DNA from: a virus
DNA length: 64,000 nucleotides
IMG/VR virus record: IMGVR_UViG_3300024239_000011
Span: 268,303-332,302 of that record
Strand: one strand, 5' to 3'
This document shows positions 18,335 to 54,447 of this stretch, in pieces (position 1 is the first letter of the stretch; each line of letters starts with the position of its first letter). Both the position numbers and the translations under genes were made by a program. Below the pieces are notes generated by a model. That model did not search any database. It worked only from the letters and a program-made list of their open reading frames with translations, and was not told the DNA's origin.

Positions 18335-18365
18335 AAAGGCGGGGATCACTCCCCGCCTTTCTCTT
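18335..18365. terminator. Bidirectional terminator
   Basis: Arms AAAGGCGGGG and CCCCGCCTTT over a 6-base loop, with T-rich flanks on both strands, between convergent genes 17239-18330 and 18364-33330. Confidence 0.88.
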
Positions 18366-30300: not shown

Positions 30301-33300
30301 AACCTTGAAGTTATCACCCGCCGGGCACATTGTGGAGTATGCAAAGGGGAAATCAACAGTCTTACCAACATTGATTTCTTCCAATGCCCGATTGACGAAA
30401 TCTTCAGGGGAAATCAGTCGATCAATACCCTGCTCATAGATATCCACAATCTTACGGATAAATTTGTTACGGAAACGGCTGAACTCATGTTCCGCATACT
30501 GTATCGACAACATGAAGTCAATGTTTTGATCTGATGCCATAATCATAGTCTTCAACATCGGCGCTCGATGTTGAAGAATTACGCGACCAAACGAACGATC
30601 CTTTGGGGTGTCACGGTAGTTGTTTACCCCGTACACGTTCCCGTTAAAATTCTTCTGACTCTTCAATATCGTCGTGAAGTGATCAAAGAATTCATTATAA
30701 CTGATTTCACTTACTTCACGAGAATCCGGGTTGCCCTGAAGATTGAACGGAACCTCATAGACGCCAACCAGATTATCTGGCGCTCGCCGCACATAGGTGT
30801 AAATGGTCACAAGGTTATTCTTCGCAACACCGTTACGCAAACTGACAACACCATCAGATACCGAATAATCAGTGTACAAATTGAGTTCTTCGGCATTAAC
30901 CATTACAGAAATGGCATCCGGATCGATCAATTCATCAACGGTTAAGTTGTGCGAAATTGCGAAATCAGTTTGACCTTCGGTAGAGATGTAGGTGTGTTTG
31001 ATGCGCTGACGGCTTGGCATATCCACCAAGTACCAGTCGTTTGAATAATCAAAACTGCCATCAATTTTCTGGGTACGATGGAAGTAATACCCCGTAATCT
31101 CATCCTTATCCAGGGCATAATTGAACCGTTCGGTGGTTAAGTAATTCTTGTAAATGGGATGACCACTTGCGCTGTGTTTGACGCGCATTTCAAGAATTGT
31201 GTCCATTGGAACGCCCGCCGATGCTTCATCGGTGAATCCAAAAACGCGGCTACCGGCGAACGTGGATTCTGGGTAACGCCCCGGATCATCCAAGGCAACG
31301 CCGTCGATGTCGTAGAGTGCAAATAATGGGGGCTGGTTCGAGTGGGTCTTGCGCTGAACTTCAATCCAGTTGTCGCCATCGAAGCGGAAATCACGGTCAA
31401 GGTTTGAGAACCCGTATCGAGAACGAATGGTGTCGCCAACCGAAGGAAGACCACTTTCATTCTCGCCAACAATGACCGGCGATAGTACCACACGTCCAGT
31501 GGATTTGATACCAGATACACGGTAAATGCGATTGTTGTATTCTGGGTTTGGATCATTGGTGATCAAGATGGTCATACCATCGCGGATCAAAATGCCCTTC
31601 TCGGTATCCCAGATAATCGCGGTGATCTTGGTTTGTGCAGTCCCGGTAGGTTTACGAATGCTTAGTGTGTTATTGGCGTTGATACGATAATCGAAACCAA
31701 TACGCACTGGACGATCATTGAAATAGAATACCGCACGCAACGCTTCGTCCGGAGTTAACCCAAGACCCATCGTCGGATTGGATAGATCAATGGTGTACGA
31801 TCCCGCATCGACAAACCAAGTCGAAGTCGGATCATTGGCAGTATCTACCCAGTTTTTACCACGTGCTGATACATCAAGCAGCAAGGGTGCAATACCAAAC
31901 TCACGTAACGGGGGCTGATTGTGAATAAAATCAGGATTGGAAGCAGCGAACCCATTGATCTGAGTGAACGTTAATACGTCTTCCTTAACATCCACATCAC
32001 CAACACGACGTTGACCATACTGATACAATTCCAAATTACGCTTGAACTCAATGATTGGACGCTCAGCGCGAATCGCGTCGTCCGTACCACGGTCGGCACG
32101 AGCAACGACATCCTCGTGGAACCACCGGTTCCCGCGACTCCATGGATTGCCGTCAATACAACCACGCTCCATCACAAGATAATCTGGACGGGCACTGGTT
32201 GTCGCCAAAGCAACACTACCCCAACCAAGACCCTGCTCGGCATCCCACCCAAATGGTTCAATGCGCAGATTGATTTCTTTTCCAACCCCGGCAACTTTAT
32301 ACATACAGGTCTTGTAGGTATACTTGGTGACTTGTTCGAAACCATATGTAACAAAGATGATCAGCATGTTGTTGGTCAGCGCAATCGGCTCGGACGGCGA
32401 CGCATACGATGCTTCCCATTTGTCGTCATAGGGGTCAGTCACATCCGGTGGGGTCATCGGATCAAATGGACGCCACGGGTTGTCCTGATTTGCTCGCTTG
32501 TAATGACCACTAAAATCAAAATATTTCTTACCGTTAATGGTCGTGATGAAGTTTTGAATATCAGTATTCGGGTCTTCAATGAAAAATACGTAGGGTGTGA
32601 CCGTATAACGACCAAGATCATCCCAGCGATGACCACCTTCACCCTCTGGTTCTTCAATCAGGAATGCAGATACACCAACTCCTTCAATAATGAAAGTCTT
32701 GTTGTTGAACTGATCGCTATTCACGTCGCGGCGAATAGTCAAACGCATTCCACTGGTGAGGGTTAGCGGTTCTACCGTTCCGTCGTGCGGCTCAGTGATG
32801 CTGTCATCAGACGGCAGCCGATATTTTCCCGTGAATATTAATGGATAATCCGTATTCCCGACCAAAGTTCGTTCCACATCAGTCAAACTGAGAATTTCAA
32901 TCGGTTTCGGTCCACGCGGCATCCAATAATACCGTTTGAAATTCATAAGCTTATCGATGTCTACCGGCGGACACCATGAATAAAACTCATTGTCGAAAAG
33001 ACGGTTATGGTCGTTTATCAAACCGCCATGAAAACGCAGATGGTTCAATAGATCATCGTAGAACAAAGCATGCGTCACCGAAGCAGTTTCCGTGGCGCGG
33101 CTGATTGCTATGGGTTCCATCGAATAATCTTGGCGTGTCTTTGATGGCTCCTGAATGTAGAAATCCTTTTCAGGGTCAGTATACAATGGATAGCGTCCAA
33201 TGTATCCACTGACTACTTCCGATGCCTGTGGCTGGAATAGATGATCTACAGTGGCGCCAAAAAACCGCTGAAGGGTCTGGCTTTGAAGAACCGAAGGCAA

Positions 33301-39782: not shown

Positions 39783-40505
39783 TCAGTCACCCTCGTTTTC
39801 CAATGGTTGCCACCCGTTCGAGCCGCAGACTTCGAGCGGTTTGAAGCGGGTTTTATATTTCATGGTTTGTGCCCCTTTTACCCAAAATCCCAGATAGAAA
39901 TACGGAAGGTTTTGGCGTTTGAGTTCTTCAATTACCCAGAGGATCGCAAAAGTACCTAGCGACCGTTTATCCATGGACGGCTCGAAGAACTGGTAGTTTC
40001 CAGAAAACCCGTCATTCAATCGGTCGATCAGGGTCACTCCGATAAGATGCCCATTGGCATCCCGGAATTCGTATAGGAACGTTTCAATCGGGCTGATCTC
40101 AACCATCGACCGATAGTCCTCAAAACTCATCAACGCCATGTCACCGCCAGTGTGTCGCGTTTCCTGATAGCGTGTGAACAATCCGTATTGTTCCTTGGTC
40201 GCAACATTCTTCACGCGAGTAACAATCAAATCGGTATTTGTCTTGATAATTTTGCGCATGGTGCGGTCAGGAGCAAACCCATCAACAACAATACGCACAG
40301 ATTTACACTCCGAGCAGCCCGTGCAGGTTGGAGTATAGATGATGTTATGACTGCGCCGATAGTTTGACGCTGCCATATCACTATAAAATTTCTCGGCATT
40401 TTTCAGGCTGGAAATTTCAGTCACGGTTTTACGTTCAGCCCGTGCCGGAAGATATGGGCACGGCAGCGGTGACGTTGTGAAGTAATATGGAGATTTTCTC
40501 GTCAT
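39783..40505 (-). CDS. bpt: Aspartate/glutamate leucyltransferase (Bpt)
   Basis: I chose ATG 40505 (MTRKSPYYFTTSPLPCPYLP), matching the usual Bpt start; length 240 aa is normal. Family signatures are all visible: CPYLP, a CTGCSECKSVRI cysteine cluster, ETRHTGGDM, LIDRLNDGFSGNYQFFEP, RSLGTFAILW and PYFYLGFWVKGAQTMKYK. Bpt transfers Leu from Leu-tRNA to proteins with N-terminal Asp or Glu, making them ClpS/ClpAP substrates (N-degron pathway). A sigma70-like promoter upstream suggests early expression, so it may redirect proteolysis of host proteins or remove host defences. Confidence 0.93.
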   Translation of the reverse strand: MTRKSPYYFTTSPLPCPYLPARAERKTVTEISSLKNAEKFYSDMAASNYRRSHNIIYTPTCTGCSECKSVRIVVDGFAPDRTMRKIIKTNTDLIVTRVKNVATKEQYGLFTRYQETRHTGGDMALMSFEDYRSMVEISPIETFLYEFRDANGHLIGVTLIDRLNDGFSGNYQFFEPSMDKRSLGTFAILWVIEELKRQNLPYFYLGFWVKGAQTMKYKTRFKPLEVCGSNGWQPLENEGD

Positions 40506-40531
40506 TGAACACCTGTGATACACCACCCGCC

Positions 40532-40790: not shown

Positions 40791-40820
40791 TCATCATTAC
40801 CATTTGGCGTAGGTGGAATG

Positions 40821-41627
40821 ATGGCGATTACGTATACACTTAATAAAACAGATGGAACACAACTTTGCATTGTAAATGAGCTTGTTGAAGATACAACCAC
40901 AATTCCATTGGCGCTTTTTGGTAAAAACCGACTTAATTACGGTAAAAAGCTAAACGAAAATTTTGTTAAGCTACTTGAAAACTTTAATGACGCTGCCGCG
41001 CCATCCAATCCTCTTATCGGGCAATTGTGGTATAATCGTACAACAGGCGATCTCAAGCTATACAATGGTACAACATTTGCTGGTTTGAACGCCGATACGT
41101 TGGACGGCGTTCATAGTGATGAACTGTTGCTAAAATCTCAAAATTTAGCAGATTTACCAGATAAAGCAACCGCGCGTAGTATTTTGTCCGTGTATGAAAA
41201 AACACAGGTATATACCCGAGCAGAAACGTACTCAAAAACTGAAGCTGAAAGTTTATTTGTCAATGTATCCGGCGACACCATGACCGGGTTCTTGTCTCTT
41301 CATGCTGACCCTACGAATGCACTTCACGCCACCACCAAACAATATGTGGATAACCTCGGTGCCTATGGTCACACCGATAACCCAACCATCGCCGCTGGTA
41401 CCTATGTGGACTACAACCTTCAGACTATTTTTGCAGACGCAGGGTATGACGCGAGGGCGGCAGATGTTGGTGTGAAGGTTCTCGACGTAACTAGTGGTTC
41501 GCCAACTGAGAATTGGTATATTGACGCAGGAGCGGTTGCAACTATTGCAGTAAACAATACCACAGTGCGAATAATAAACGAATATACGTCGGCACTTACT
41601 TTCTACATCACAATTATCAAGGTCTAA
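40821..41627 (+). CDS. Tail fibre-like protein, 268 aa
   Basis: I chose the second ATG (MAITYTLNKTDGTQLCIVNE), properly spaced from AGGTGG and equivalent to the start of the paralogue at 43648. The first about 85 residues (to GQLWYNRTTGDLKLYNGTTF) match that paralogue and are probably a virion attachment module. A DTMTGFLSLHADPTNALHAT stretch resembles phage tail-fibre repeats. The C-terminal part is beta-rich and may bind receptor. Confidence 0.8.
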   Translation: MAITYTLNKTDGTQLCIVNELVEDTTTIPLALFGKNRLNYGKKLNENFVKLLENFNDAAAPSNPLIGQLWYNRTTGDLKLYNGTTFAGLNADTLDGVHSDELLLKSQNLADLPDKATARSILSVYEKTQVYTRAETYSKTEAESLFVNVSGDTMTGFLSLHADPTNALHATTKQYVDNLGAYGHTDNPTIAAGTYVDYNLQTIFADAGYDARAADVGVKVLDVTSGSPTENWYIDAGAVATIAVNNTTVRIINEYTSALTFYITIIKV

Positions 41628-41628
41628 T

Positions 41629-43572
41629 ATGATCACCCGCACATACTACCGCGCAAATGGTAATTTCATATTGGTCCCTGACCGTGGTGTCAAAACCGCA
41701 GCGGACTACTATGGCTATAATACTTTATATGCGTCATCTGCTGCTAGTGGATATCAGGAAAGCTCAAAGGTCACCTTGCACTTGTACGAGGACATGACGA
41801 CTGGAAAATTGAGCTTGCACGTCATAAACGACATGTCCCAGGGATTGGGTGATACCGGTGGTGGTGCTAACTATGTTGTGGTGGATAATCTTCCGACAGG
41901 ACATCAAGTAATTGCAGCGGATGATCCTGGCGAGGCATGGTCTAATAGTACGACACAGGCTATTGGTAATTTTGGATGGGGTGATTGCTGCACTGATGGT
42001 ATGGTAATCGATAATATTCAAGATATGACTGCAATTATGATTACCTGTTCTGGGTATAGCGGCGTTGATCAATTCAAGCTTGCGAGCTATGATGGACGCA
42101 TTCAATATCTCCCTCTGACAACAACACTAACAATCGAGAAGATTGTCGAAGAGATAGACGAAACATTGTTTTTACAAGAAAACCCGGTCGCAGGGCAATA
42201 CACAGGTTCTCAAGTTGTATCTTTTACTAAGGCGGCGAATGTTACTGCTAAAATCGCGCTCAATGCCACCCCATCCAATTCAAAAATTATCGCATATGAC
42301 GCCAATGAAAATCCATTCATTGCGGTCGTTGATGACGGGCGTGGACGTGTAGTCTTTGATGGCGGGTTCCCTAGATACTACAACTCAAATTGGAACGGGG
42401 TTGGGTATTACACTCTGCTCAAAGCAGAGCATATGTTTCTCTATCAATGCATGAACTGGATTGTCAATCCGGTAAAGGTTCGTAATGGTAATAAGTCAAT
42501 ACTAATATTCAATGACAGCATCACTGGTGAGAATTACCCACTCAGTTCGTTTAATACAACATTGGATGGGGTTGCCGCGATTGCCGGTTATACTCTTGTA
42601 CACAAGGATCGGTCAAGCTTTGGGGCAGGAGATCAAGTAACAATCCCATTTGTTGAACTTGATCAGTATGCAGCGGTTATTGTGTTTTCAACAAGATACT
42701 GGGGTTCGCCCAGTATTACGGCAGAAACCGGGGCAAATTTCAAGATATACCGGGAAGCCGGAAACGGTATTATGGTGATCACGGACCATTCCGATGGCAC
42801 AACGTCATTTCAGCATACCGCGAACGTTATTGCAAACCAGTTTGGGGCTAATTTTTACGGGTCTGTGGATAGAACCCCCGTCGCAGTTTCGACGTTGAAG
42901 CAAAATTATGGCGTCCATCCTCTTTGGAATAATATCCCTGGAAGTATTGTTGGGGGAGGTAGTGAAGGTAATATATCCGTCACCAATTTCCCTGATTATA
43001 ATGACACGTCGTGGGTAATTGATCCGGCAGACATTTACACCTTTAATGCTCTTGTCCAAGACGAGATTGGGTTCTTCTATCATTTCTCATTTGGATATGC
43101 AATTGGCGTTGATGAACCGATACAATTGAATTTTTCACCGGAGACATTGAAGGATGTGGTGAACGTTGATTTCTACGTCGCTCAATATGCCGGTACTACG
43201 AGTGGGTTTGTGATTGATGCCATCGGAAATGTCCTCGGGTCATTTCGTAATGATGGGACGTTCTCAATGACGTGGTACGATCCAGATTTCGCGACCGTAC
43301 AATTGACGAAAGGTGATGCGCCAATTGTAATCAATATTCGTGTTACGCATCCCTTCTCGTATACCAAGAAAGTTTCTCTGATACGCTATGTGAAGGCGTG
43401 CAATCCTTTAAGTTCATCTTCAATTCTTGATGCACTTCATGGTGCTGAGTTGCGGGATCATCTTGGATCACCAGCAAGGATTATTCGTGACTTCCGCGAT
43501 ATTACCAATAATGATCCAAACAAGAAACCATCATTTGCGCTGTCATATCTGTACTACTATTTGCTTCCGTGA
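41629..43572 (+). CDS. Probable adhesin/tail protein with GATase-like domain, 647 aa
   Basis: N-terminal region (about 1-150) resembles secreted beta-jelly-roll proteins (GWGDCCTDGMVIDNI). Residues about 285-420 have a Rossmann-like order (SILIFNDSITGENYPLSSFN, YAAVIVFSTRY, NGIMVITDHSDGT) reminiscent of ThuA/DUF4350 class-I glutamine-amidotransferase folds; no catalytic Cys is evident. The C-terminus is beta-rich, then helical (SSSILDALHGAELRDHLGSP). It lies between two tail-fibre genes, starting one base after the first, so a receptor-binding or host-surface role is likely. Confidence 0.65.
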   Translation: MITRTYYRANGNFILVPDRGVKTAADYYGYNTLYASSAASGYQESSKVTLHLYEDMTTGKLSLHVINDMSQGLGDTGGGANYVVVDNLPTGHQVIAADDPGEAWSNSTTQAIGNFGWGDCCTDGMVIDNIQDMTAIMITCSGYSGVDQFKLASYDGRIQYLPLTTTLTIEKIVEEIDETLFLQENPVAGQYTGSQVVSFTKAANVTAKIALNATPSNSKIIAYDANENPFIAVVDDGRGRVVFDGGFPRYYNSNWNGVGYYTLLKAEHMFLYQCMNWIVNPVKVRNGNKSILIFNDSITGENYPLSSFNTTLDGVAAIAGYTLVHKDRSSFGAGDQVTIPFVELDQYAAVIVFSTRYWGSPSITAETGANFKIYREAGNGIMVITDHSDGTTSFQHTANVIANQFGANFYGSVDRTPVAVSTLKQNYGVHPLWNNIPGSIVGGGSEGNISVTNFPDYNDTSWVIDPADIYTFNALVQDEIGFFYHFSFGYAIGVDEPIQLNFSPETLKDVVNVDFYVAQYAGTTSGFVIDAIGNVLGSFRNDGTFSMTWYDPDFATVQLTKGDAPIVINIRVTHPFSYTKKVSLIRYVKACNPLSSSSILDALHGAELRDHLGSPARIIRDFRDITNNDPNKKPSFALSYLYYYLLP

Positions 43573-43635: not shown

Positions 43636-43647
43636 GAGGGGTTGCGG

Positions 43648-44982
43648 ATGGTCTATTTTATTAACAAATACGATGGCACACAGGTAGCGGCAATTGCCGA
43701 AGGTGCAATGGACACCACCAGCACTTCATTGAAGTTGCTTGGGAGAAATTTTATCAACTATGGTGAGATCATCTCCGAGAACTTCGTTCATCTGATGGAG
43801 AATTTTGCCAGCCCAAACCCGCCTGCTGGGGTGCCATTATCTGGGCAGTTGTGGTTCAACACTACCGACAACAAAATGTATTTGTTTAATGGTACGACTT
43901 GGGTTGTCGCCACCGCGATCAACGTGGGTAACACCGATGGTGATCCGAATAATAACGGGGATGGACCAAATGCATTACCACCGTCTGGTACAGCGGAAGG
44001 CGACCTCTATTGGGATGCCGATACGCAGCAGCTTTGGGGTTGGACCGAGATTGGCACCCCGCATTGGGTGTTGATTGGTCCGCCCGCACCGGACAGCGCA
44101 AATTCCAAGCTGGAATATCAGCAGATTGATGGTCATGATTGCCTTGTGATTACCATTGGTGGTCAATACATCGCCATCTGGTCAGCGGTATCGTTCACTC
44201 CAACCACTGCTCCGTGGAATAGCATTTTCCCGGCTGCCGCTACCGGCGTTGAAGGTATTGTTGCCGGATTAACATTCCGCCGCGATGATATGAATAGTAT
44301 CAGAAGTGGTTCGCATTATCCGAGCAAGAACAATAGTTTCAACCTTGGTTCCGCGTCGTTGCGGTGGGATACACTGCATGCGCGTGTTGTAGTTGCTGAT
44401 AATATCCAGCAAACTGGTCAAGGAAGCATTGCTTTTAATAAATTCATGCGTACCGACCAAACCAATGTCCCCGATGTTAATGTGGCTTACGACCTTGGAA
44501 GCACAACGAATCGGTATTCAAAAGTTTACGCAACCGATTTCATGGGTACTTCCACCGCAACGCGCCTTGCCGACTTGGCAGAACGTTTTGCTGCGGATGA
44601 GCCGATGGACGAAGGTACCGTTGTCAAGCTCGGGGGTTCCGCTGAAATTACCAAGACGACCGAAGCGGCAGATATCGATGTCCTCGGGGTGGTGTCCACT
44701 CGTGCGGCATTCAAAATGAATGCCGAAGCTGGTGATGATAACTCCCATCCGTTCGTTGCTTTTGCTGGTCGAGTGCCATGCAAAGTTGTTGGTAAGGTCG
44801 AAAAGGGTGAACGTTTGATTACCTCCAATATTCCTGGGGTTGCTATTGGATTCAAAACAGCGTATCCGGAGATTGCTGGTTTTGGTACAAACCGCCATGC
44901 GCTGGAAATTATTGGCCGTGCGCTTGAATGCAAAAACACTGACGAGGTGGGTTTGGTTATGATCGTGGTTGGTACGAAATAA
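43648..44982 (+). CDS. Tail fibre protein, 444 aa
   Basis: I chose ATG 43648 (MVYFINKYDGTQVAAIAEGA) with GAGGGG six bases upstream. The first about 85 residues are paralogous to the protein at 40821. The C-terminal 140 residues (RLADLAERFAADEPMDEGTV..., VVSTRAAFKMN, VPCKVVGKVEKGERLIT) match a domain common at the end of phage and marine virus fibres, sometimes called peptidase-G2-like. It is likely trimeric and exposed on the particle. Confidence 0.82.
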   Translation: MVYFINKYDGTQVAAIAEGAMDTTSTSLKLLGRNFINYGEIISENFVHLMENFASPNPPAGVPLSGQLWFNTTDNKMYLFNGTTWVVATAINVGNTDGDPNNNGDGPNALPPSGTAEGDLYWDADTQQLWGWTEIGTPHWVLIGPPAPDSANSKLEYQQIDGHDCLVITIGGQYIAIWSAVSFTPTTAPWNSIFPAAATGVEGIVAGLTFRRDDMNSIRSGSHYPSKNNSFNLGSASLRWDTLHARVVVADNIQQTGQGSIAFNKFMRTDQTNVPDVNVAYDLGSTTNRYSKVYATDFMGTSTATRLADLAERFAADEPMDEGTVVKLGGSAEITKTTEAADIDVLGVVSTRAAFKMNAEAGDDNSHPFVAFAGRVPCKVVGKVEKGERLITSNIPGVAIGFKTAYPEIAGFGTNRHALEIIGRALECKNTDEVGLVMIVVGTK

Positions 44983-45038: not shown

Positions 45039-46181
45039 TTGAAGGAAATTGATCTCTATCTCGGTGGCTATTTGCTGTGCTGTGGCGACGTATTCGTTGA
45101 CCTCGGTGATAAGCGATATGCTGATGCCGTATCGATACAGCCGCTTGCCGGGCGGTATGGCATCTACAACGTTCATCTGGATTCGAACCAGTTGAGCCTT
45201 ATCCCCGAGCTTGAGCAGACCTTCCAGGGCGCTACGGTTCGGTTCTACGTCCGCCTGATTGATGGGAACGTCAATTACGCCCCGGCGCCGAACGTCACGT
45301 TCTTCACCGATGATCAAGCGATCCTTGAACAGATGAATGCCGCAAACAGTGGACTTAATGTGACGTTCTTGCTCACCCCGGATGTTGCAATACAGCCAGT
45401 TGTTTCCCTGATTGAAACTTCGCAAAACACGATTCGCCTCCAACTGCTAGTGGTGAAGAATGGTACGGCTGTGAAGTGGAACCCAGGTACCCTGGATGAG
45501 GTGTTCTTTCACGTCTTTGATCATGTGGTTCGCACGGGTAATCCGCGTATCGTATTCGATTATCCGAGTATGCGTGGCGCAGAATACCATTGCTGGTTGG
45601 ATCAGTATTATTTTGTCAATGGTGATACTGAGATTCAATGTCCACTAGTTGGGCATCTTCGCCCCTATGATTTAAATTATGAGCCACTAACCACCGAATG
45701 CGCGTTATGTGCATTTAATAGTAAGTGCTTCAACTGTCGATGGGCGAACTATCATAATACCGCATCTTTTGTGAATACTGGATGTCGTGATGTGTCTGAG
45801 TTTTACGACAAATCATTGACTACCGTACACAACGTGCAATTATTTCAAGTGTTCAGTCAGATGTATGATAAATTCCGCGAGCAACCGGAAGAAATGCTCA
45901 AGGTTTATACGTTTCTGATATCGGAGAACCGCCCTGATCAATGGATTTCGGTGCGGGAGGTATTTGGTGAATTGCTCAAGGAAGCAACCACCAAGGATTA
46001 TGCATTTGATTTTATGGTTTCTGTGATCTCGGCATATACCGATCCGCTTGCGGTATTTTCCACGGAAACTGTGCATACCATTGGGCGAAATATGTTTGAG
46101 ATTGCCGAACCAAATCTCAATCAGCTTTTAGGATACCTATTCCTTATCGAATACGCGAAGATTTACCACGGGGAAGGTTAA
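45039..46181 (+). CDS. SPASM-like protein lacking the radical SAM motif, 380 aa
   Basis: It starts at TTG 45039, supported by AAGGAG seven bases upstream. There is no CX3CX2C motif. Residues 185-249 hold a cysteine cluster (C185, C201, C221, C224, C230, C233, C249) whose CALCAFNSKCFNC core mirrors CQSCVLNPKCFQC in the radical SAM enzyme at 51212, so it probably binds an auxiliary Fe-S cluster. The N-terminal 150 residues are beta-rich and could recognise substrate. First gene of the operon, overlapping the next by one base (TAATG). A variant late core TAAATT lies at 44998. Confidence 0.7.
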   Translation: MKEIDLYLGGYLLCCGDVFVDLGDKRYADAVSIQPLAGRYGIYNVHLDSNQLSLIPELEQTFQGATVRFYVRLIDGNVNYAPAPNVTFFTDDQAILEQMNAANSGLNVTFLLTPDVAIQPVVSLIETSQNTIRLQLLVVKNGTAVKWNPGTLDEVFFHVFDHVVRTGNPRIVFDYPSMRGAEYHCWLDQYYFVNGDTEIQCPLVGHLRPYDLNYEPLTTECALCAFNSKCFNCRWANYHNTASFVNTGCRDVSEFYDKSLTTVHNVQLFQVFSQMYDKFREQPEEMLKVYTFLISENRPDQWISVREVFGELLKEATTKDYAFDFMVSVISAYTDPLAVFSTETVHTIGRNMFEIAEPNLNQLLGYLFLIEYAKIYHGEG

Positions 46182-47401
46182 TGCATAAGATCACCGGGAA
46201 GGTTAAGGGGACGGTCCTGTTCTATGATGAAAGGACCGCGATTCTCTACGACCATGACATGGTTCCGATCACCCAGACCCGTGACTATCAACGGTCTAAG
46301 TTTGGTGGTGCTATTGGTTTGTATAACATCGCCAGCGTGCAGTTTGGGCAATTCTGTAATCTCCGATGCACATACTGCCTGCAACGCACTATAGGAAGTG
46401 TTGATAGCGTTCATACCCCGGAGCGTGGTACGAAAATCCAACAGACGGTTGAGTATATTAGACGTACACTTGATCCGTGTATTCCAACCAAGGTTGATTT
46501 GTGGGGCGGCGAACCGCTGTTCTATTGGGATGATCTGAAGGAGGTTGTCACCAGCCTGGAACCGCATGGGCAGATGCACTTCACGGTGTTTACCAATGGT
46601 ATGGCACTCAAGGAAGAACATCTGGCGTGGTTCGCCAGCCGTCCATCCAAATTCACGGTGTCATTAAGCCATGATGGGTTTGGACAAGCCGCGCGTGGTA
46701 AAGACGTTCTGGACAAAGTGCTTGATTTGTTTGCTCACATAATTGCACCGAATATTGATTATTCAATTGCAACTACTGTGTCAAATACCAACCACGACCT
46801 TCTTGCGCTGAATGATTTGTTCATGGTAGCACTGGATCGTCATGGGCTGCGGGATAGGGCGAAGTGGATCATTGAAATCCCACTGGTGTTCAGCGCAAAG
46901 GATGCTTTTGACCCCAAGCAGTTGCATAAGTTTACCGAGAACCTTAGGGCGTTCTTAACAGAAAATGAGCGCGGAAACCCACGCATTCTTAACAACACCT
47001 TATGGTCTACTTTCGATCTGTTCGGTATATTTGCCCTGCTGAATCGTTTCAACAGCAAACATATACCAGGGTTCTACCGGTGCCATTTGTCCTATGATAA
47101 TGCCGTGGTTGTCAACACCAATGGTGAAGTGCTTCTCTGTCCTCATTCAACTTCTCCGACGCATGTGTTGGGGTCGGTTGACGGCGGTCAGGTCAAACAC
47201 AAATCCGAGGTGATTCGCACCGGATATGATCCGCGTTGCGACGGTTGCCTCGTTCGTGATTTTTGTCGAAGCAGTTGCCCAATCATTGGTGGTACTTTTG
47301 AAGATAATCACAAAGTAATGTGGGCGTACTTCTCGACGTTGTACGAGTTCGCCTTTAAGCGTCTTCTTATGGAAGATGAAGTCGTAATCGAGCGAGTGTG
47401 A
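46181..47401 (+). CDS. Radical SAM/SPASM enzyme 1, 406 aa
   Basis: The radical SAM motif CNLRCTYC is at 59-66 and GGEP at 108-111, after a 50-residue N-terminal extension. The SPASM region near 320-375 has CPHS and CDGCLVRDFCRSSCP, enough for auxiliary clusters. Enzymes of this class modify peptides (thioether, C-C or C-O crosslinks, epimers, oxidation). The extension (TVLFYDERTAILYDHDMVPI) is shared with the next protein. One-base overlap with the upstream gene, one-base gap to the next. Confidence 0.9.
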   Translation: MHKITGKVKGTVLFYDERTAILYDHDMVPITQTRDYQRSKFGGAIGLYNIASVQFGQFCNLRCTYCLQRTIGSVDSVHTPERGTKIQQTVEYIRRTLDPCIPTKVDLWGGEPLFYWDDLKEVVTSLEPHGQMHFTVFTNGMALKEEHLAWFASRPSKFTVSLSHDGFGQAARGKDVLDKVLDLFAHIIAPNIDYSIATTVSNTNHDLLALNDLFMVALDRHGLRDRAKWIIEIPLVFSAKDAFDPKQLHKFTENLRAFLTENERGNPRILNNTLWSTFDLFGIFALLNRFNSKHIPGFYRCHLSYDNAVVVNTNGEVLLCPHSTSPTHVLGSVDGGQVKHKSEVIRTGYDPRCDGCLVRDFCRSSCPIIGGTFEDNHKVMWAYFSTLYEFAFKRLLMEDEVVIERV

Positions 47402-47402
47402 T

Positions 47403-48674
47403 ATGAAATTCAAGATCAGCGCCTTGGATACCCAAGCAACCATCATCTATGACAACGAAGCTAACATCTTTTTTGACGACACGGGAGTGCCGCTCACACA
47501 AACCGCGAATTACATTCGTAGACGCGCGGCCAATTGGGACAAAACGCCGACGTGGCAAACATCCACTAATATTCGGCAAATCAAAATTTCTCTTGGGCAG
47601 TTCTGCAACTATTCCTGTACCTACTGTATGCAGAGCCAAATCGGTGAAGTGGGTAAGGAAGGTTTTGCGAAGAACGTCAACACCGACCGCATCATCGAAA
47701 TCCTCAAGACCAATTACACGGTCCCCGACAACGTTCGCATCGAACTGTGGGGTGGTGAACCATTCTTCTATTGGGAAGATATGGTCAAGCTCATGGAGGC
47801 GTTCGATCATGAAACTGCTGAATTCCAGATTTTCACCAACGGATCAACTTTGCGACGCAAGCACCTTGATTTTTTCAAGGGTTTGAAGAGCCGTAAGATC
47901 GATCTGGGGCTGTCGCACGACGCAGCCAAACAGGAAACCACCCGTGGTAAAAACTATCTCGCTGAAAACCTTGAACTGCTTCGCGAGTATCGTGAATTTA
48001 CGAATATCCAACCTTTCTTGAGTGCCACGTTGACCAACGTGAATTATGATTTGTTGGAAATCAATGACTACTTTCGTGCTATGTTGGAGGCGCACTACGG
48101 GGATACGAACCTGTGGATCAACTTCGACGTGCCGATGATTCACGAAAAGCAGAGTCTCAAGTTCTCACAAGACCAGCTTGATGGTTATAGCGCCAACTTG
48201 CGCAAGTACCTTCAAGCGTGTTGGGAGGATAAGAATCACGAGCGTATGATCCGTGGTTCGTTTTTTGAAGGCGGACAGCCAAGCTTCAAGCGCATCATGG
48301 AATCCTTCCATTCCAAGGATATTGAGTCATTCATCAAATGTGCAGTGGGTTCGCCTAATTCGTTGACCCTCGATCTGGAAGGCAATGTTAAAACCTGCCC
48401 ACACGCCGGGGATGCACATATATTTGGGAACGTCCTTGAGAGCGAAGACCACATTTTCAAGAATGATCCCACCTATGTGCGCACGGTAGAATACGACCAG
48501 TGTCAAAAGTGCTTGGTGCGCCGCTTCTGCCAAGGCGGTTGCCCTATCGTGATTGATAAAAACACGTGGTACTCGTATCACCATGTTTTGTGGACCCACT
48601 ACAGCACCATGTTCCAACTGGCTATGGAATTGTTGCTAGGTAGCAAAAAAGTGATGATCACAAATGTTGACTGA
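47403..48674 (+). CDS. Radical SAM/SPASM enzyme 2, 423 aa
   Basis: CNYSCTYC at 69-75 region (C68, C72, C75), then LWGGEPFFYWED. SPASM cysteines include CAVGS, CPHAGD and CQKCLVRRFCQGGCP. It is the closest relative of the preceding enzyme, including the N-terminal extension (QATIIYDNEANIFFDDTGVP), so the pair arose by duplication. The reaction is unknown. The gene overlaps the next by 11 bases. Confidence 0.9.
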   Translation: MKFKISALDTQATIIYDNEANIFFDDTGVPLTQTANYIRRRAANWDKTPTWQTSTNIRQIKISLGQFCNYSCTYCMQSQIGEVGKEGFAKNVNTDRIIEILKTNYTVPDNVRIELWGGEPFFYWEDMVKLMEAFDHETAEFQIFTNGSTLRRKHLDFFKGLKSRKIDLGLSHDAAKQETTRGKNYLAENLELLREYREFTNIQPFLSATLTNVNYDLLEINDYFRAMLEAHYGDTNLWINFDVPMIHEKQSLKFSQDQLDGYSANLRKYLQACWEDKNHERMIRGSFFEGGQPSFKRIMESFHSKDIESFIKCAVGSPNSLTLDLEGNVKTCPHAGDAHIFGNVLESEDHIFKNDPTYVRTVEYDQCQKCLVRRFCQGGCPIVIDKNTWYSYHHVLWTHYSTMFQLAMELLLGSKKVMITNVD

Positions 48675-49707
48675 TCTGTGCCGCAACGTCTCTATCATCA
48701 ATTTGTTGCTGACCAAAAAGTGCAACTACTCTTGCTCATATTGTCACCAGCTTCACAAAGACGATGTGCGACTTGCGGTATCACCACCCGAGCGTATCCA
48801 CGAAATTGTGGAAAAGCTTGCTACGATCAATGATATCCCGAAGAACGTGCGATTTTTCGGCGGGGAAACGCTACTGCGTTTCCCCGATATCAAAGCCTAT
48901 TTTGAGGCATACCAACCGAACTATCCGGCACTGGGGTTTAGTGTTTATTCGAACGGATCACTCCTAACTCCTGACATGGGCGAATTCCTCGCCAAGAACG
49001 GCGTAGACCTCACATTATCCATCGATGGGTATACAGAGGACGGTCAGCTTGAAAAGGACTATAAACGCCTAGAAACCGTCTTCCCGGCGATCTATCGCAT
49101 CTACGCCACTCACGGACGTATGATATCGGTGTCGGTGACCATCGACATTGCCAAAGTTCAGGCAGCGAAGAACCTGATGGTGTTGTTTACTCGGCGTTTT
49201 CCACGCACCAAACTTTTCATTTCTCCCGTTTTCCATTCGAAGGGTGATGGGAATACCCCATGGAGCATGGATGCGATTGATGACCTTCTGGGGTTTGTGG
49301 AGACCATCAACCAACAACGGGCAACACCGATCCTACAGGGATTGAATGTGATCTCATCGCCTCAGAAATGTATTAGCGTGGATTGGACATTGGCAGTGGA
49401 CCTGTCGGGCGATCTGTCCAGTTGCTTCTTCACGATCACCGACAAGCTGACCTTCCCCGAGTACGTCTATGGGAACCTGTTGGACGACCGATTTGACGCG
49501 CCCCAATATGCTGCGATCTTGGAGCGGAAGCGTCAGATGTTCGACAACCCGTATTGCGCGGCATGCAGGTTCAAAGAAACCTGCATATCTTGCTCGACGT
49601 GCGGGATGCTGTTCAACGAGAACCGGTGGTTCGAAAACGGCGAATGCAAGCCCTTGGTACATTTCTTGTCTGGGATGCATCACATGACCAGGGATGAACC
49701 ACTATGA
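48664..49707 (+). CDS. Radical SAM/SPASM enzyme 3, 347 aa
   Basis: The motif CNYSCSYC (C20, C24, C27) lies near the N-terminus without the long extension. FFGGET replaces the usual GGEP. SPASM cysteines: CISVDW, SSCFF, CAACRFKETCISCSTCG. The C-terminal pattern resembles the enzymes at 51212 and the SPASM-only protein. Likely a peptide-modifying enzyme. Four-base overlap (ATGA) with the next gene. Confidence 0.88.
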   Translation: MLTDLCRNVSIINLLLTKKCNYSCSYCHQLHKDDVRLAVSPPERIHEIVEKLATINDIPKNVRFFGGETLLRFPDIKAYFEAYQPNYPALGFSVYSNGSLLTPDMGEFLAKNGVDLTLSIDGYTEDGQLEKDYKRLETVFPAIYRIYATHGRMISVSVTIDIAKVQAAKNLMVLFTRRFPRTKLFISPVFHSKGDGNTPWSMDAIDDLLGFVETINQQRATPILQGLNVISSPQKCISVDWTLAVDLSGDLSSCFFTITDKLTFPEYVYGNLLDDRFDAPQYAAILERKRQMFDNPYCAACRFKETCISCSTCGMLFNENRWFENGECKPLVHFLSGMHHMTRDEPL

Positions 49708-51209
49708 ATGAAATTACCACTCTGCTGCGTAGCCGTGGGGTCTTTCAAGTGGTACTCACCAATCGCTGCAACTACAATTGCAACTACTGCTATCAGGAAC
49801 GCAATTTTAAGAAGTTCCCGAACGAGTTCGATAGCGCCGAGCAACTTGATCGTGTTTGCGGTAAATTGGTCGAACACCGCAAGGACGACACCCACTTCGA
49901 GTTCCAATTTCTCGGCGGCGAACCGCTGTTGAAGAAAAATGTTTTAATGAATTTTATGCGGGATTATGCATGGAAATATCCCAAGGTAGTATTCAACGTA
50001 ATCACCAATGGTAAACTTCTCGATCACGAAACGGCAGTAGAGTATATCACGAGTCACCCTCTGGCGAAAATCTATTTTTCCTGTGACGGTATTGACCTGA
50101 ATACCAATACGCATCCCAAGACCTGGGAACGTATTGCGATACTGTATGACCGGCTCTATCAACGCTTCCCAGAGCGCATTGGCATCATCCCGGTACTAAC
50201 CAGCAGTACCATCCCTAATTACGTTGCCCTATTGGATTTGATGGCGGAAAAATATCCACTCAGTCATGTTCATGCATTGGCCGCAATCAGCGACCATTTC
50301 GATACCAACTTCGAATGGTCGCCCGAGCATATTCGCAGCGTCGGGGAACAAATCCGTCCGTTCTTCCTGAAACACCCAGGTTGGACCATTGACTATTACA
50401 TGTGGGATTATCCGCTCGATTCCTTCCTCGATTCGGCGGACGACCCGGCGGTGATGCCAAACGGTGACATACATCTGATGCCATCGTATTTTATGGGTGA
50501 AGCAGCAGACCTAAGCAATAAACCAGACTTCAATGTAATCACCGGGGAAGTATACCCGTACCTTGCCCAGAAACAGATCAAAGAGCGGTTGATTCAAGCG
50601 GCGAAAACTGCCAACTCGCGCTGTCAGACATGCCCGATTTCGGGGCATTGTCTTCCGATGAAATTCTTCACATTGGTACACTTACCGGACGAGCAAATTA
50701 CCGCAGAGACCGTGGTTGATGCAGAATGTAACACCATGCTTGATTTCTTCTGGAATATGCCGGTGTTCGCACATTTTCCCACCGGCATATTTCAGAACCT
50801 TCAACAGCAAGTCCAACTGTTCCAGAAGTATCGGACACGATATGTTCGGGCGCTTTATGTTTTAGACCGTTTGGCTATTCCAGTTCTGCAACTTCTAAAT
50901 GACGATTTTGTTGAGAATATCGAAAAACTTGGCGTTGGAAAATATTTCTATCTAGATATGTATGGGGTTTCCCGCCATACCGAAGAAGTGCGCTCCGCAT
51001 ATAATACTCCATTGCGGGATATTTTTTGTCATTTCAAGCATCATCCGAAACGTCGTCCACTTCACCCGGCATTGGTATGTAAAGTTGTTCGTGAATTGTT
51101 GGATAAACCGACCGACCATTTGTTTGAGTTAATTATTCCGAACCTTTACCACAAGGTCTATTATGGTCCAACGTGGCATTGGTCGTTTGACGACACTTAT
51201 AGGTGGTAA
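49704..51209 (+). CDS. Radical SAM enzyme 4 with reduced SPASM, 501 aa
   Basis: CNYNCNYC (C22, C26, C29) and FLGGEPLLKK are intact. Only CQTCPISGHCLPM of the SPASM cluster is obvious; the first cysteine region is replaced by MPNGDIHLMPSY. A 150-residue helical C-terminal extension follows (from about 350) with no cysteine cluster. It has probably diverged in auxiliary cluster or substrate. It has the longest product in the operon and ends three bases before the ATG of the next gene. Confidence 0.85.
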   Translation: MNEITTLLRSRGVFQVVLTNRCNYNCNYCYQERNFKKFPNEFDSAEQLDRVCGKLVEHRKDDTHFEFQFLGGEPLLKKNVLMNFMRDYAWKYPKVVFNVITNGKLLDHETAVEYITSHPLAKIYFSCDGIDLNTNTHPKTWERIAILYDRLYQRFPERIGIIPVLTSSTIPNYVALLDLMAEKYPLSHVHALAAISDHFDTNFEWSPEHIRSVGEQIRPFFLKHPGWTIDYYMWDYPLDSFLDSADDPAVMPNGDIHLMPSYFMGEAADLSNKPDFNVITGEVYPYLAQKQIKERLIQAAKTANSRCQTCPISGHCLPMKFFTLVHLPDEQITAETVVDAECNTMLDFFWNMPVFAHFPTGIFQNLQQQVQLFQKYRTRYVRALYVLDRLAIPVLQLLNDDFVENIEKLGVGKYFYLDMYGVSRHTEEVRSAYNTPLRDIFCHFKHHPKRRPLHPALVCKVVRELLDKPTDHLFELIIPNLYHKVYYGPTWHWSFDDTYRW

Positions 51210-51211
51210 TC

Positions 51212-52588
51212 ATGGACAACCCTTTCAGTCAGGTCTATTGGATCAATCTGCTCCTGACTAATAAATGTAACAAGCAGTGTTCGTACTGCTATGAGCAGCA
51301 TAAAGCCGAGTTTGAACGGTCGTACATCAATGCACATCGTGTGGATGAAATCTGCGCGAAGATGGACACCATGAACTCGCTTCAGAAAACCCTCCATTTT
51401 TTTGGCGGCGAACCCATGCTGAAGTTCGACACCATCATGGAGTACATGCGGGCATCGTCCCATAAATACCCCACATTGTCTTACGTGATTATCACCAACG
51501 GCACGCTACTGACTCCTCAGAAATTCGAGGATTTCGTTTCGCACGGCGGCTCATTCTACATTTCCTGCGACGGCTGGGGGATCGATAACACTGACATCAC
51601 AACCAAGGATTTCAGTGCTATCAAGGATGTGGTTGAGGCATGCTTCCCGGTGGTCGCAGCCTATGATAAACGCATTACGTTCGACGTAGTTGTGCATCCC
51701 CGTGAGGTCGCGTCGTTCGGGCGGTTTATGCAGTACCTCGCCGGAAGTCCGCATTTCGAGCAAATCAATATCCACATCAAGCCATTGCTATACAGCATGA
51801 CCGATGGGTTGGTGCGCTGGGATGACGCAGCGATTAATCAATTCTTACAGGAATGTATGAATGCCATTGTGAAATCAAAGGGCATCAATTTCGAGATAGA
51901 AGGGTTCTACGAGAAGTCATGGGGCACGTGCATGACCATGGCAAACAACCTGAATGTTGATGTTGAGGGTAATTTTTCAGGGTGTTATTTTCTACTGAAC
52001 CAACATAAAGCCACCTCGGCATTCGATGATGCCATTTTTGGCAACATTCTAACCGGCGAGATTGATACTGCCAAAATCGCCAACTTTAAACGCCTGGAAC
52101 AGGAACTCTACCAGTCCTCTAAATGCCAATCTTGCGTATTGAACCCAAAATGCTTCCAGTGCAGTGCTGGACTGTACACAACCCTTGGAAAGTGGTACGA
52201 CAACGACAAGCATTGCGAAATCGTTATCCCATTCATCCAACGGTTGAATTCCTTCCAAGCCATGAAAGAGGATGCATATATCATTGGCTGCCTGAAGGAG
52301 AAAATCCAGGAACATGGGTCTGAGTGGTTTGTGACTCGCCTTAAGTATTGGACGACAGTTCACATGCAAGCGACGTTGCTGGAAATTTGTAATGCACATA
52401 TCCCAGCACAAAACATTATGGCGGGAAATGCGCCACTTGATTTGGGTCAGTGGCTCAGTGATGCGGGGGCAAAGCAAGTAGCAGAGCTTCATCACATTTT
52501 CACGCCTGCATTGGCTGATCTTTCTGCTCAAGATCAGTTTACGCTTTGCGTTGCGCGTGTGATTGAGAAAGAACATCCCAAAACCTAA
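51212..52588 (+). CDS. Radical SAM/SPASM enzyme 5, 458 aa
   Basis: I chose ATG 51212 with AGGTGG upstream, over the GTG at 51203. CNKQCSYC (C19, C23, C26) and FFGGEPMLKF are present. SPASM: CMTMANN, SGCYFLL, CQSCVLNPKCFQCSAG and a later C in NDKHC. A C-terminal helical extension of about 100 residues follows. Last gene of the operon, followed by the inverted repeat and late promoter of the discoidin-like gene. Confidence 0.9.
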   Translation: MDNPFSQVYWINLLLTNKCNKQCSYCYEQHKAEFERSYINAHRVDEICAKMDTMNSLQKTLHFFGGEPMLKFDTIMEYMRASSHKYPTLSYVIITNGTLLTPQKFEDFVSHGGSFYISCDGWGIDNTDITTKDFSAIKDVVEACFPVVAAYDKRITFDVVVHPREVASFGRFMQYLAGSPHFEQINIHIKPLLYSMTDGLVRWDDAAINQFLQECMNAIVKSKGINFEIEGFYEKSWGTCMTMANNLNVDVEGNFSGCYFLLNQHKATSAFDDAIFGNILTGEIDTAKIANFKRLEQELYQSSKCQSCVLNPKCFQCSAGLYTTLGKWYDNDKHCEIVIPFIQRLNSFQAMKEDAYIIGCLKEKIQEHGSEWFVTRLKYWTTVHMQATLLEICNAHIPAQNIMAGNAPLDLGQWLSDAGAKQVAELHHIFTPALADLSAQDQFTLCVARVIEKEHPKT

Positions 52589-52596
52589 TAGAAAAC

Positions 52597-52633
52597 CCTC
52601 CATGGACTGCTAAATACGTGCAGTCCATGGAGG
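52597..52633 (+). promoter_or_regulatory. Late promoter nested in perfect RBS-sequestering hairpin
   Basis: Perfect 14-base arms CCTCCATGGACTGC (52597-52610) and GCAGTCCATGGAGG (52620-52633) enclose TAAATACGT. The second arm ends in the GGAGG ribosome binding site of the gene at 52640. Read-through RNA from the radical SAM operon would bury the site; RNA from the late promoter would not. Confidence 0.75.
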
Positions 52634-52639
52634 TGCTTG

Positions 52640-53503
52640 ATGGTGGTAACGGTAATCAGCGGCGGTGATAATTCATCCAGCTATGCAAAAGACAAAGCTT
52701 TTGATAATTCGATAACGACATCCTGGCGAAGCTTACAGACCGGCGTTGATGTTGTAAATGCCGCATGGCTCGGTCAAGATTTCGGTATTCCAGTTTACGT
52801 GATTTCTGCGAGCTACCGTAAAGGGTCATACGATCCGGCATCGGTTGCGATACAGTACAGTGATGATGGATTGTCATGGACGAATACTGGTGTAACGTTT
52901 ACCAGTTTTAGCAACGCGGTGGAAAAGAAAAGTATAGCAGTGGGTACACCGCATCGTTACTGGCGTGCAATTGCCACAGGTGCCACGGCAGGTACCAACC
53001 CATGGGAAATTGTAGAATTGACTTTCGGCATCGCCACAACAGGATTACCCAAGTACATAACGAAGGTAGTGTCTCTTGGCGCAATAACCAATTTGAACGC
53101 AACGGCATTGAAGGCACGGGTGAATACGTTGAAGACAAAGTTTGTTCAGAACGGCATTCTCACGGCAGTAGATATGCAGGAATTTTGGAGCATTCTTCGG
53201 GATTTCAGCCAACACTACCACCCATACACGGAAACGAAGCAGGCGATTGATAATATTCAGGCTGGTATTGATGCTATTACCGATTCAACAACAAAGACCA
53301 ATGCCCAGAACGCCGCAAACCCTCATAAGGTAACCGTTTTGAGTAACACCGGTCCTATATTATTTGACAATCCGATCACATCTGGGTTTTCTGTGGGGTT
53401 TGTATTGGATAAAGTGACAATGAATACGTTTATTGAAATGATAAATGCATCCCAACGTCATAAACATAGTGTAACTGATCGTTTTTTTGACACAGCAGTC
53501 TAA
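52640..53503 (+). CDS. Tail protein with discoidin-like (F5/8C) domain, 287 aa
   Basis: I chose ATG 52640, six bases after GGAGG. The first about 140 residues match the F5/8 type C (discoidin) pattern: SSSYAKDKAFDNSITTSWRS, then WLGQDFG, YRKGSYDPASVAIQYSDDG, YWRAIATG. Such domains bind sugars. The C-terminal half has two short His motifs (SQHYHPYT and RHKHSVTD) like the metal-binding HxH motifs of T4-type fibre tips. Probably a tail-fibre or tip protein. Confidence 0.72.
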   Translation: MVVTVISGGDNSSSYAKDKAFDNSITTSWRSLQTGVDVVNAAWLGQDFGIPVYVISASYRKGSYDPASVAIQYSDDGLSWTNTGVTFTSFSNAVEKKSIAVGTPHRYWRAIATGATAGTNPWEIVELTFGIATTGLPKYITKVVSLGAITNLNATALKARVNTLKTKFVQNGILTAVDMQEFWSILRDFSQHYHPYTETKQAIDNIQAGIDAITDSTTKTNAQNAANPHKVTVLSNTGPILFDNPITSGFSVGFVLDKVTMNTFIEMINASQRHKHSVTDRFFDTAV

Positions 53504-53514
53504 GGAAGTCCGAT

Positions 53515-53898
53515 ATGGCTGAACAAAATGTTCCTTCGAATACCGATGCAGCAACGTATTCGACCACAGCAGCGGAAACCCCGCAAATCACCGCACCGCA
53601 AATACTGACGGCCAACATGTTCCAAAACATGTTGAATGTGCTGGAAAATGCTCTCGGTAGCCATACCCATACGCATCAAGATACCGCATTGAATGCGTGT
53701 ACGTGTTGGAACTATACACCGTGTGACCGTTTAGTGACCAACCTTACCTGTGTTGATTGTTCGCCTGGAAATTGTGCTGGGCAGTGCCGCACGTGTGGTA
53801 CCGCGCAATGTGGGACTTATGAGTGTGCCTGTGCTGATGTTCAGGGATGGGTTGATAATACTCCTGGGGGTAACGGGACACCCTGCACACTGCCTTGA
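53515..53898 (+). CDS. Cysteine-rich tail-tip-like protein, candidate radical SAM substrate, 127 aa
   Basis: Residues 1-60 look like a tail-fibre segment with a helix (LTANMFQNMLNVLENALG) and HTHTH at 50-54. Residues 62-124 hold 12 cysteines (62, 64, 70, 79, 82, 87, 91, 94, 99, 104, 106, 124), rich in Gly, Thr and Asn. This leader-plus-Cys-core layout resembles precursors of thioether-crosslinked peptides. It lies 0.9 kb after the radical SAM operon. Alternatives are a disulfide-rich or metal-binding tip. Cytoplasmic expression makes free thiols available. Confidence 0.65.
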   Translation: MAEQNVPSNTDAATYSTTAAETPQITAPQILTANMFQNMLNVLENALGSHTHTHQDTALNACTCWNYTPCDRLVTNLTCVDCSPGNCAGQCRTCGTAQCGTYECACADVQGWVDNTPGGNGTPCTLP

Positions 53899-53918
53899 AT
53901 AATTACCTAAACAAATTG

Positions 53919-53962
53919 ACCAGAAACCTCGAACCATGCGATTTTGGACGAGGTTCTGGTTA
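53919..53962 (+). repeat. Inverted repeat, possible regulatory hairpin
   Basis: ACCAGAAACCTCG and CGAGGTTCTGGT (12 pairs with one bulged base) lie between the Cys-rich gene and the next. There is no T-run; it may be a weak terminator or an RNA stability element. Confidence 0.4.
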
Positions 53963-53976
53963 ATGAAGGTATTAGG

Positions 53977-54447
53977 ATGATCGAGTGTAAATCGGGTGAG
54001 AGCAATCCACGTTTTCAATTTGATATTACTCGCGGTGAGCGCGAGTATTTTGATGCTTTTGCTGCGGAATGCGAACTGTTGTTCAACTTTGAGCGACAAC
54101 TTGCCCTTGTAATGCAAACACCCGTACCCGACCCCGCCTTGCATTACCACGATACATTGTCGGTGCTGTTTCGGGTTGATAAAGCACCGACGCTTGATCT
54201 TGACCATGCACGCGCATGGCTCGAAGAAAACAAACCTGATTTGCCGCCACAACTTATTTTTCGCCGAGTGTTCCCTGATGATGCGGAGGGTGAAGCGTGG
54301 TTGGCGGAATTGACAATCCCCGAAACGGTGTCGGTGTCGAAGCTTGGGTATGTTGATCCCATGACGTTTGATATTTGGACCATGTACCAGTTCGAATGCC
54401 CCACGGTTGATGATGCCGCTGTGGTTGGTCCACTGGTGGAGGTTTAA
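53977..54447 (+). CDS. Unknown acidic protein, 156 aa
   Basis: I chose ATG 53977 (MIECKSGESNPRFQFDITRG); a TTG at 53944 would fall in the inverted repeat. Strongly acidic, with beta strands in the C-terminal half (GEAWLAELTIPETVSVSKLG). First gene of the long small-gene run. No family recognised. Confidence 0.65.
   Translation: MIECKSGESNPRFQFDITRGEREYFDAFAAECELLFNFERQLALVMQTPVPDPALHYHDTLSVLFRVDKAPTLDLDHARAWLEENKPDLPPQLIFRRVFPDDAEGEAWLAELTIPETVSVSKLGYVDPMTFDIWTMYQFECPTVDDAAVVGPLVEV

Follow-up and report, generated by a model that had tools for sequence, protein, structure and literature searches.

A tightly packed operon of radical S-adenosylmethionine (radical SAM) enzyme genes lies among tail genes in a 64,000-nucleotide stretch of viral DNA, referred to here as the window, that spans positions 268303-332302 of the 543,035-bp virus record IMGVR_UViG_3300024239_000011, from a giant phage that is uncultured. 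The operon consists of six open reading frames (ORFs) between 45039 and 52588, all on the + strand, joined in order by an overlap of 1, a gap of 1 and overlaps of 11, 4 and 7 bases: a SPASM-like protein that lacks CX3CX2C (45039..46181), followed by RS2 (46181..47401), RS3 (47403..48674), RS4 (48664..49707), RS5 (49704..51209) and RS6 (51203..52588). These last five are the only radical SAM genes of the whole 543-kb record. Tail or virion genes stand on both sides, at 40818, 41629 and 43642 before the operon and at 52637 after it, and two genes downstream of the operon an ORF at 53515..53898 (+) encodes a protein of 127 amino acids (aa) with 12 Cys within its last 66 residues. A sequence-only reading of the window had described a six-gene operon between tail genes, and all six ORFs are present as it described them, with overlaps or gaps of 1-11 bases.

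The five RS proteins are radical SAM enzymes that resemble peptide maturases. RS2-RS6 all match the Pfam Radical_SAM family (PF04055) above the curated cut-off, with E values of 6e-10 to 2e-13 (RS2, 7.5e-11; RS3, 2.3e-13; RS4, 1.5e-13; RS5, 5.8e-10; RS6, 6.6e-13), and match phrog_1802 at E values of 5e-25 to 4e-38; five of the six operon proteins thus fall in the radical SAM superfamily, and 45039 does not. An alignment of the enzymes shows no variation in CX3CX2C or in three SPASM cysteines, which puts them in the SPASM subfamily and agrees with the initial view of five CX3CX2C, mostly SPASM-type proteins; against the SPASM model TIGR04085, RS3 scores 40 bits, above the cut-off of 27, and RS2 falls on the border at 26.9. 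A tree of 158 sequences groups RS4-RS6 with a class A of enzymes (support 0.92) and RS2 and RS3 with the phage-cassette class C and single-enzyme loci (support only 0.44), so that the operon looks like an expansion of two radical SAM classes; RS3 also matches the radical SAM protein of Achromobacter phage JWF over 94% coverage. The nearest solved structure to the class A profile is CteB (E = 3e-28), which is also first among the fold matches (5WGG/5WHY) of a structure model of RS6 with a predicted local distance difference test score (pLDDT) of 72; the fold neighbors of RS6 include anSME, and the best solved matches of the class C profile are TigE, anSME and CteB. Both RS5 and RS6 carry C-terminal extensions, that of RS6 being helical. 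In NCBIfam the ranthipeptide maturase PapB is the top match for RS2, RS4 (1.1e-22) and RS6 and ranks second or third with RS3 and RS5, the best window score being 80.7 bits against a PapB/SCIFF maturase equivalog cut-off of 340; because these scores are so far below the cut-off, we file no enzyme as a PapB or SCIFF maturase.

The candidate substrate is the 127-aa protein at 53515, the sole same-strand cysteine-rich ORF of the window. The sequence-only reading named it only alongside 43648 and 52640, as proteins to model with the enzymes, and missed its cysteine-rich core and its likely role as substrate; the target proposed here is narrower, namely 53515 and neither 43648 nor 52640. It combines a leader with an HxH module (residues 14-56, 53554..53682) and a cysteine-rich core (residues 62-127, 53698..53895), and the leader links it to a family of phage CxCxC tip precursors that we define here. 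These precursors are proteins of 63-93 aa that adjoin phage cassettes with several radical SAM genes and follow the consensus MLxVLxxLxxHxHxFYDDYxTxC(xC)n-xRG, the conserved MLxVLxxLxxHxHxFYDDY stretch being followed by a C-terminal end of the form C(xC)n-xRG(S/T)x. A profile built from 37 leaders alone, with the cysteine cores removed, was run against the 629 ORFs of the window, and 53515 was the lone significant match (E = 3.9e-7; next 0.63). The protein has the HxH leader of the family and lacks its uninterrupted C(xC)n-xRG core, the 12 Cys being of mixed spacing; it is thus a divergent family member whose core is larger and irregular. In the regular family, the residues that neighbor core cysteines are N, Q, A, D or E only (101 of 101 in 28 distinct CxC cores), a restriction that fits a recognized substrate. 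A conserved leader and a variable core beside maturases, the arrangement of operons for ribosomally synthesized and post-translationally modified peptides (RiPPs), are therefore found here, through the leader match of 53515 and the family-wide linkage.

That linkage is evident from both the enzyme side and the substrate side. A search of viral contigs for relatives of RS2/RS3, made with a three-sequence alignment, led to 529 confirmed candidates and a retained set of 80 loci, and a search with RS4/RS6 gave 15 further loci; scans of viral contigs with the single sequences of RS6 and 53515 returned no relatives. Fifty-three of the collected loci have three or more radical SAM genes, in the conserved order A, B, c1, C, where c1 is a divergent radical SAM protein with CX3CX2C in 38 of 43 cases (the remaining five are without the N-terminal part); a B12-binding radical SAM protein is added in 19 loci. 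A precursor is present at 52 of the 53 multi-enzyme loci, directly upstream and on the same strand in 49, and at the single locus without one the sequence ends on that side. Alternating-cysteine ORFs are strongly enriched near the enzymes (they number 53 of 1702 ORFs within 3 kb of a radical SAM gene and 3 of 1953 at greater distances; odds ratio 21, p = 8e-15). From the substrate side, the DNA pattern for HxHxxxD(D/N)(Y/F)xxxCxCxC matched 52 stretches among 2.9 million viral contigs, with a radical SAM gene in the fetched stretch for 50; one further match (L133) is on the same contig as another locus (L065) that has three radical SAM genes, bringing the count to at least 51 of 52 contigs. Applied to 84,980 bacterial and archaeal genomes, this pattern matched 15 times. 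Three of the matches are true precursor ORFs, each with a cassette (a Bdellovibrio metagenome-assembled genome, an Alteromonadales metagenome-assembled genome and Ewingella americana E4); the other 12 arose by chance, and no radical SAM gene accompanies them. The Ewingella cassette (L166, scaffold8.1) comes from an isolate assembly, and its precursor has an extra N-terminal HxH module. Chance co-occurrence was considered and is excluded by the domain and linkage statistics. The search for the operon and its tail linkage that the sequence-only reading had suggested thus turned up a near-perfect, bidirectional linkage of radical SAM genes to cysteine-tip proteins.

Cysteine tips of other kinds also accompany radical SAM genes, including those of isolated phages. 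The motif NCNCNCNC occurs at or near the C-terminal end of tail-fiber-like proteins, mostly of 93-600 aa, and a radical SAM gene is in the stretch at 52 of 77 true-frame loci, the loci without one being for the most part truncated stretches or short frames that are spurious. In Pseudomonas phage DT01, six radical SAM genes surround gp065, which ends in CHTSCHTSCHSARGRR; we then predicted a cysteine-repeat tip for other phages with related radical SAM genes, and the prediction held in all three that were checked, namely Agrobacterium phage Atu_ph07 (CHSSCHASCHNSRSRR), Sinorhizobium phage Phosso (CHTSCHASCHSSRSRR) and Burkholderia phage FLC6 (CHSSCHTSCHGSRGRR), each repeat ending at the stop. 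A scan with the motif CHxSCHxSCHxSRxRR at the stop, and with nothing else, found 79 true-frame loci; for 73 of them the stretch includes a radical SAM gene, in every case on the same strand, at a median of 537 bp. These jumbo phages resemble the window in that a multi-enzyme operon beside tail genes surrounds a protein whose C-terminus bears a cysteine repeat, and Atu_ph07 and Phosso also share its adjoining tail fiber; they differ in that the repeat is CHxSCHxSCHxSRxRR-like, the enzymes are distant relatives, and some operons, those of DT01 and FLC6, also contain 2-oxoglutarate (2OG)-Fe oxygenases.

Two further groups of phages extend the comparison. In SPN3US, CR5, phiEaH2, Asesino and Phobos, paired ORFs with 20-21 Cys and CxGxC-like repeats lie upstream of two radical SAM genes, and in SPN3US, CR5, phiEaH2 and Phobos this arrangement is, as in the window, part of a virion gene cluster, although the cysteine-rich proteins are paired and of another repeat type. 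The cysteine-rich ORFs of SPN3US (L287, 3094-3486 and 3497-3901), Phobos (L003, 8055-8852) and phiEaH2 (L284, 5021-5814) are absent from the records or annotated in a different frame or strand. In the Achromobacter phages JWF and 2-1 a class C enzyme is encoded downstream of a tail fiber, at a distance of two genes, and the fiber of the JWF-like phage 2-1 contains NCNCDCNCSC; unlike the window, these phages have one enzyme, and the motif precedes a Hint domain within a full-length tail fiber.

Taken with the tail context, the comparative linkage of radical SAM operons to tail proteins with C-terminal cysteine repeats supports the earlier suggestion of a tail or tip protein that is modified by the phage, and we consider it likely that the virus encodes in this operon a RiPP-like system for the maturation of a structural tail protein. 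The five enzymes (two of class C and three of class A) would act on the cysteine-rich C-terminal core of 53515, probably guided by its N-terminal leader/HxH module and perhaps helped by the SPASM-like protein 45039. The likeliest chemistry would be the formation of sulfur-to-carbon (thioether) cross-links in the cysteine core, so that a tail fiber or baseplate spike would end distally in a compact, rigid tip; this tip may take part in host contact and, as the sequence-only reading proposed, the modification may harden or diversify the receptor-binding surface. The product most likely remains in the virion and is not secreted. More broadly, we think it on balance probable that phage tail assembly widely includes a step, unrecognized until now, in which radical SAM enzymes cross-link virion tip proteins, with at least three architectures (CxC, CHxSC and CxGxC) in many unrelated phages; the window, with its five enzymes and 12-Cys tip, would be an elaborate case.

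Several observations weigh against this reading. None of the operon enzymes reaches an NCBIfam equivalog cut-off, and the first protein of the operon, 45039, has neither a family match nor a predicted fold. The core of 53515 departs from the regular CxCxC of its family, so its chemistry may differ, and the window is without the divergent radical SAM protein c1 and the B12-type radical SAM protein c11 that are present in the family cassettes. The counts given above include related phages, so that the loci are not phylogenetically independent, and two pattern scans give match counts that are to be read as "at least". Campylobacter phage CP220, which has many radical SAM genes, has no cysteine-repeat ORF in the 48 kb examined (60-108 kb), which indicates that phage radical SAM genes are not all of this kind.

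The metabolic or repair roles that the authors of the CP220 and DT01 reports suggested for the 11 and six radical SAM genes of these phages, respectively (PMC2853527 and PMC8541153), represent a different view, in which the enzymes serve host metabolism or cofactor, tRNA or DNA repair and stand beside tail genes incidentally. CP220, with no evident cysteine partner in the region examined, is compatible with such roles; the two-way linkage to cysteine-tip proteins in unrelated phages, the affinity of the enzymes to peptide maturases and their location among tail genes make them very improbable for the window, and queuosine or other metabolism was considered and rejected. The small leader-and-core protein adjoining RiPP-type maturases might instead be the classical precursor of a secreted RiPP (bacteriocin-like, signaling or superinfection-excluding) that is cleaved and exported, but this is unlikely: no leader protease or exporter was recognized in the operon or in the conserved cassette clusters, equivalent cysteine tips terminate tail-fiber-like proteins of 300-600 aa in other phages, the Ewingella precursor has its extra HxH module, and 53515 has a virion-type HxH module in common with the tail protein 52637. 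An antiviral or superinfection function, such as that of a prokaryotic viperin, would account for weak pVip matches of RS5 (56 bits) and RS6 (58 bits), yet the best score, about 58 bits to NF038283, is far under the 180-bit cut-off, and the SPASM C-termini and peptide-maturase affinity of the enzymes led us to reject viperin identity and to regard such a function as extremely improbable.

The nature of the modification is where an alternative carries more weight. HxH motifs are known from metal-binding tail tips, and the cysteine tip could be a metal- or iron-sulfur-binding or a disulfide-linked spike, with the radical SAM enzymes acting as cluster donors or introducing another modification (epimerization, methylation or oxidation) and no thioethers. 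Such chemistry would suit the B12-type radical SAM proteins and DUF3050/heme-oxygenase-like proteins of some cassettes, the 2OG-Fe oxygenases of the DT01 and FLC6 operons, and the presence among the fold neighbors of anSME, which oxidizes a residue and forms no cross-link. Among solved structures the thioether-forming CteB is closest to class A, and the best family for RS2, RS4 and RS6 is PapB, which cross-links Cys to Asp/Glu carbons; we regard a tip without thioethers as possible but rather doubtful, and favor cross-linking by the five enzymes.

The closest characterized parallel to the proposed maturation of 53515 is that of ranthipeptides/SCIFF peptides by CteB and PapB, where a radical SAM/SPASM enzyme gene likewise adjoins a short cysteine-rich substrate gene; CteB is the solved structure nearest to class A in both sequence and fold, and for several of the enzymes no named family matches better than PapB. 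The system described here differs in being phage-encoded within a tail module, in having four to five different radical SAM proteins per substrate, in sharing the substrate module with a tail protein, in its lack of a recognized exporter or protease, and in scores short of the equivalog cut-off. Radical SAM clusters in phages have been reported without a named substrate in the parts considered of four papers (PMC2853527, PMC8541153, PMC12390700 and PMC5468394). Among these, the published description of Aeromonas phage 332-Vera, with which we compared the window, places eight radical SAM genes inside a structural cluster, a likeness to our operon, and calls them highly unusual (PMC12390700). 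The early remark that five enzymes for one particle are unusual therefore holds only in part, given 11 in CP220, six in DT01 and eight in 332-Vera, and its comparison with Campylobacter phages is right in that CP220 carries radical SAM genes, although CP220 is perhaps not analogous, having no cysteine-repeat ORF in 60-108 kb. In the open-access literature we found no paper linking radical SAM enzymes to phage tail protein modification; the part of PMC11118758 considered here concerns how RiPPs of prokaryotes relate to phages and does not treat the proteins of phage tails.

If this proposal is true, phage tail assembly gains a new enzymatic step; to our knowledge, virion proteins are generally assumed to be unmodified except by proteolysis. 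It would also explain a large class of "metabolic" annotations of phage radical SAM genes, and would make available a big natural set of paired enzymes and substrates. The idea is directly testable in the cultured phages Atu_ph07, Phosso, SPN3US, DT01 and JWF, and for Atu_ph07 virion mass spectrometry has been published (PMC6102473). Overlooked genes come to light as well: in the records examined, the cysteine-rich ORFs of the SPN3US type are missing or are given in the wrong frame or on the wrong strand.

The first operon protein, 45039, has a SPASM-like CX2CX5CX2C cluster that was recognized by eye, and no accepted family in Pfam, PHROGs or NCBIfam comparisons. An hhalign comparison with the radical SAM classes weakly picks out the SPASM cysteines at a non-significant probability of 2.8%, and a single-sequence structure prediction (pLDDT 37) gave no usable fold. 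The sequence-only reading had called it a SPASM-only protein, which stands insofar as the cluster is present and CX3CX2C is not, and is otherwise backed just by eye and by the non-significant profile match; judging from its sequence, 45039 is possibly a degenerate radical SAM partner or a scaffold.

Matches to PHROGs, to cassette gene clusters and to an F5/8 type C domain on the two sides of the operon confirm that its neighbors are tail or virion genes. Upstream on the + strand are a tail-fiber-like protein (40818..41627) with PHROGs tail fiber and virion structural matches and homology to the Atu_ph07 and Phosso tail fibers, a virion structural protein (41629..43572; phrog_11065, E = 5.8e-76) with 34% identity over 96% to a protein of Salicola phage SCTP-2, and, directly before the operon, a tail-fiber-like protein (43642..44982) that matches the tail-fiber cassette cluster c2 (E = 6e-14). 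The last is homologous (E = 1e-65 to 1e-68) to the fibers beside the radical SAM operons of Atu_ph07 and Phosso, so that one tail locus holds different enzyme/tip pairs in related giant phages. A scan via the tail protein 41629 found no relatives of the phage, and SCTP-2, which has a 41629 homolog, has no radical SAM gene. Downstream, the tail protein at 52637..53503 (+) has an N-terminal domain that resembles F5/8 type C (PF00754, E = 7.6e-6, slightly short of the cut-off) and a C-terminal HxH module that the module of 53515 resembles; this C-terminal part is homologous to c3, a gene of phage radical SAM cassettes (E = 3.4e-13). A baseplate wedge gene lies inside the window at 4220-7630, and a T4-type Gp23 capsid gene is elsewhere in the record.

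Good Shine-Dalgarno sequences precede 45039, 52637 and 53515. A perfect 14-bp RNA hairpin (52597..52633, +; -29.4 kcal/mol, z = -6.3) separates the enzyme genes from the structural genes, and the Shine-Dalgarno sequence of 52637 lies within its 3' arm. The hairpin could set the ratio of enzymes to structural proteins, possibly as an RNA processing site or a translational switch between the two sets of genes. A second strong hairpin (z = -6.1) lies just past the cysteine-rich gene, at 53895-53985.

Other features were noted in passing. The DUF3050/heme-oxygenase-like protein is a frequent neighbor of multi-enzyme cassettes (L090, 14945-15700, and 37 other loci), and none was found as such a neighbor in GenBank phages. 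Near one radical SAM cassette (L038, 3-2813, - strand) are three adjoining ORFs of 283-327 aa with 27-33 Cys each, and CP220 gp032 (L002, 16842-17213), which lies about 7 kb from a radical SAM gene, encodes a protein with 27 Cys and NCxxC-like repeats. In the window, a 4988-aa ORF at 18364-33330 (- strand) matches in part c13, an RCC1-repeat-like tail cluster found near radical SAM cassettes (E = 2e-9), and an ORF at 39783-40526 (- strand) resembles, by eye, a bacterial aspartate/glutamate leucyltransferase (Bpt) or arginyl-transferase, which is unusual for a phage.

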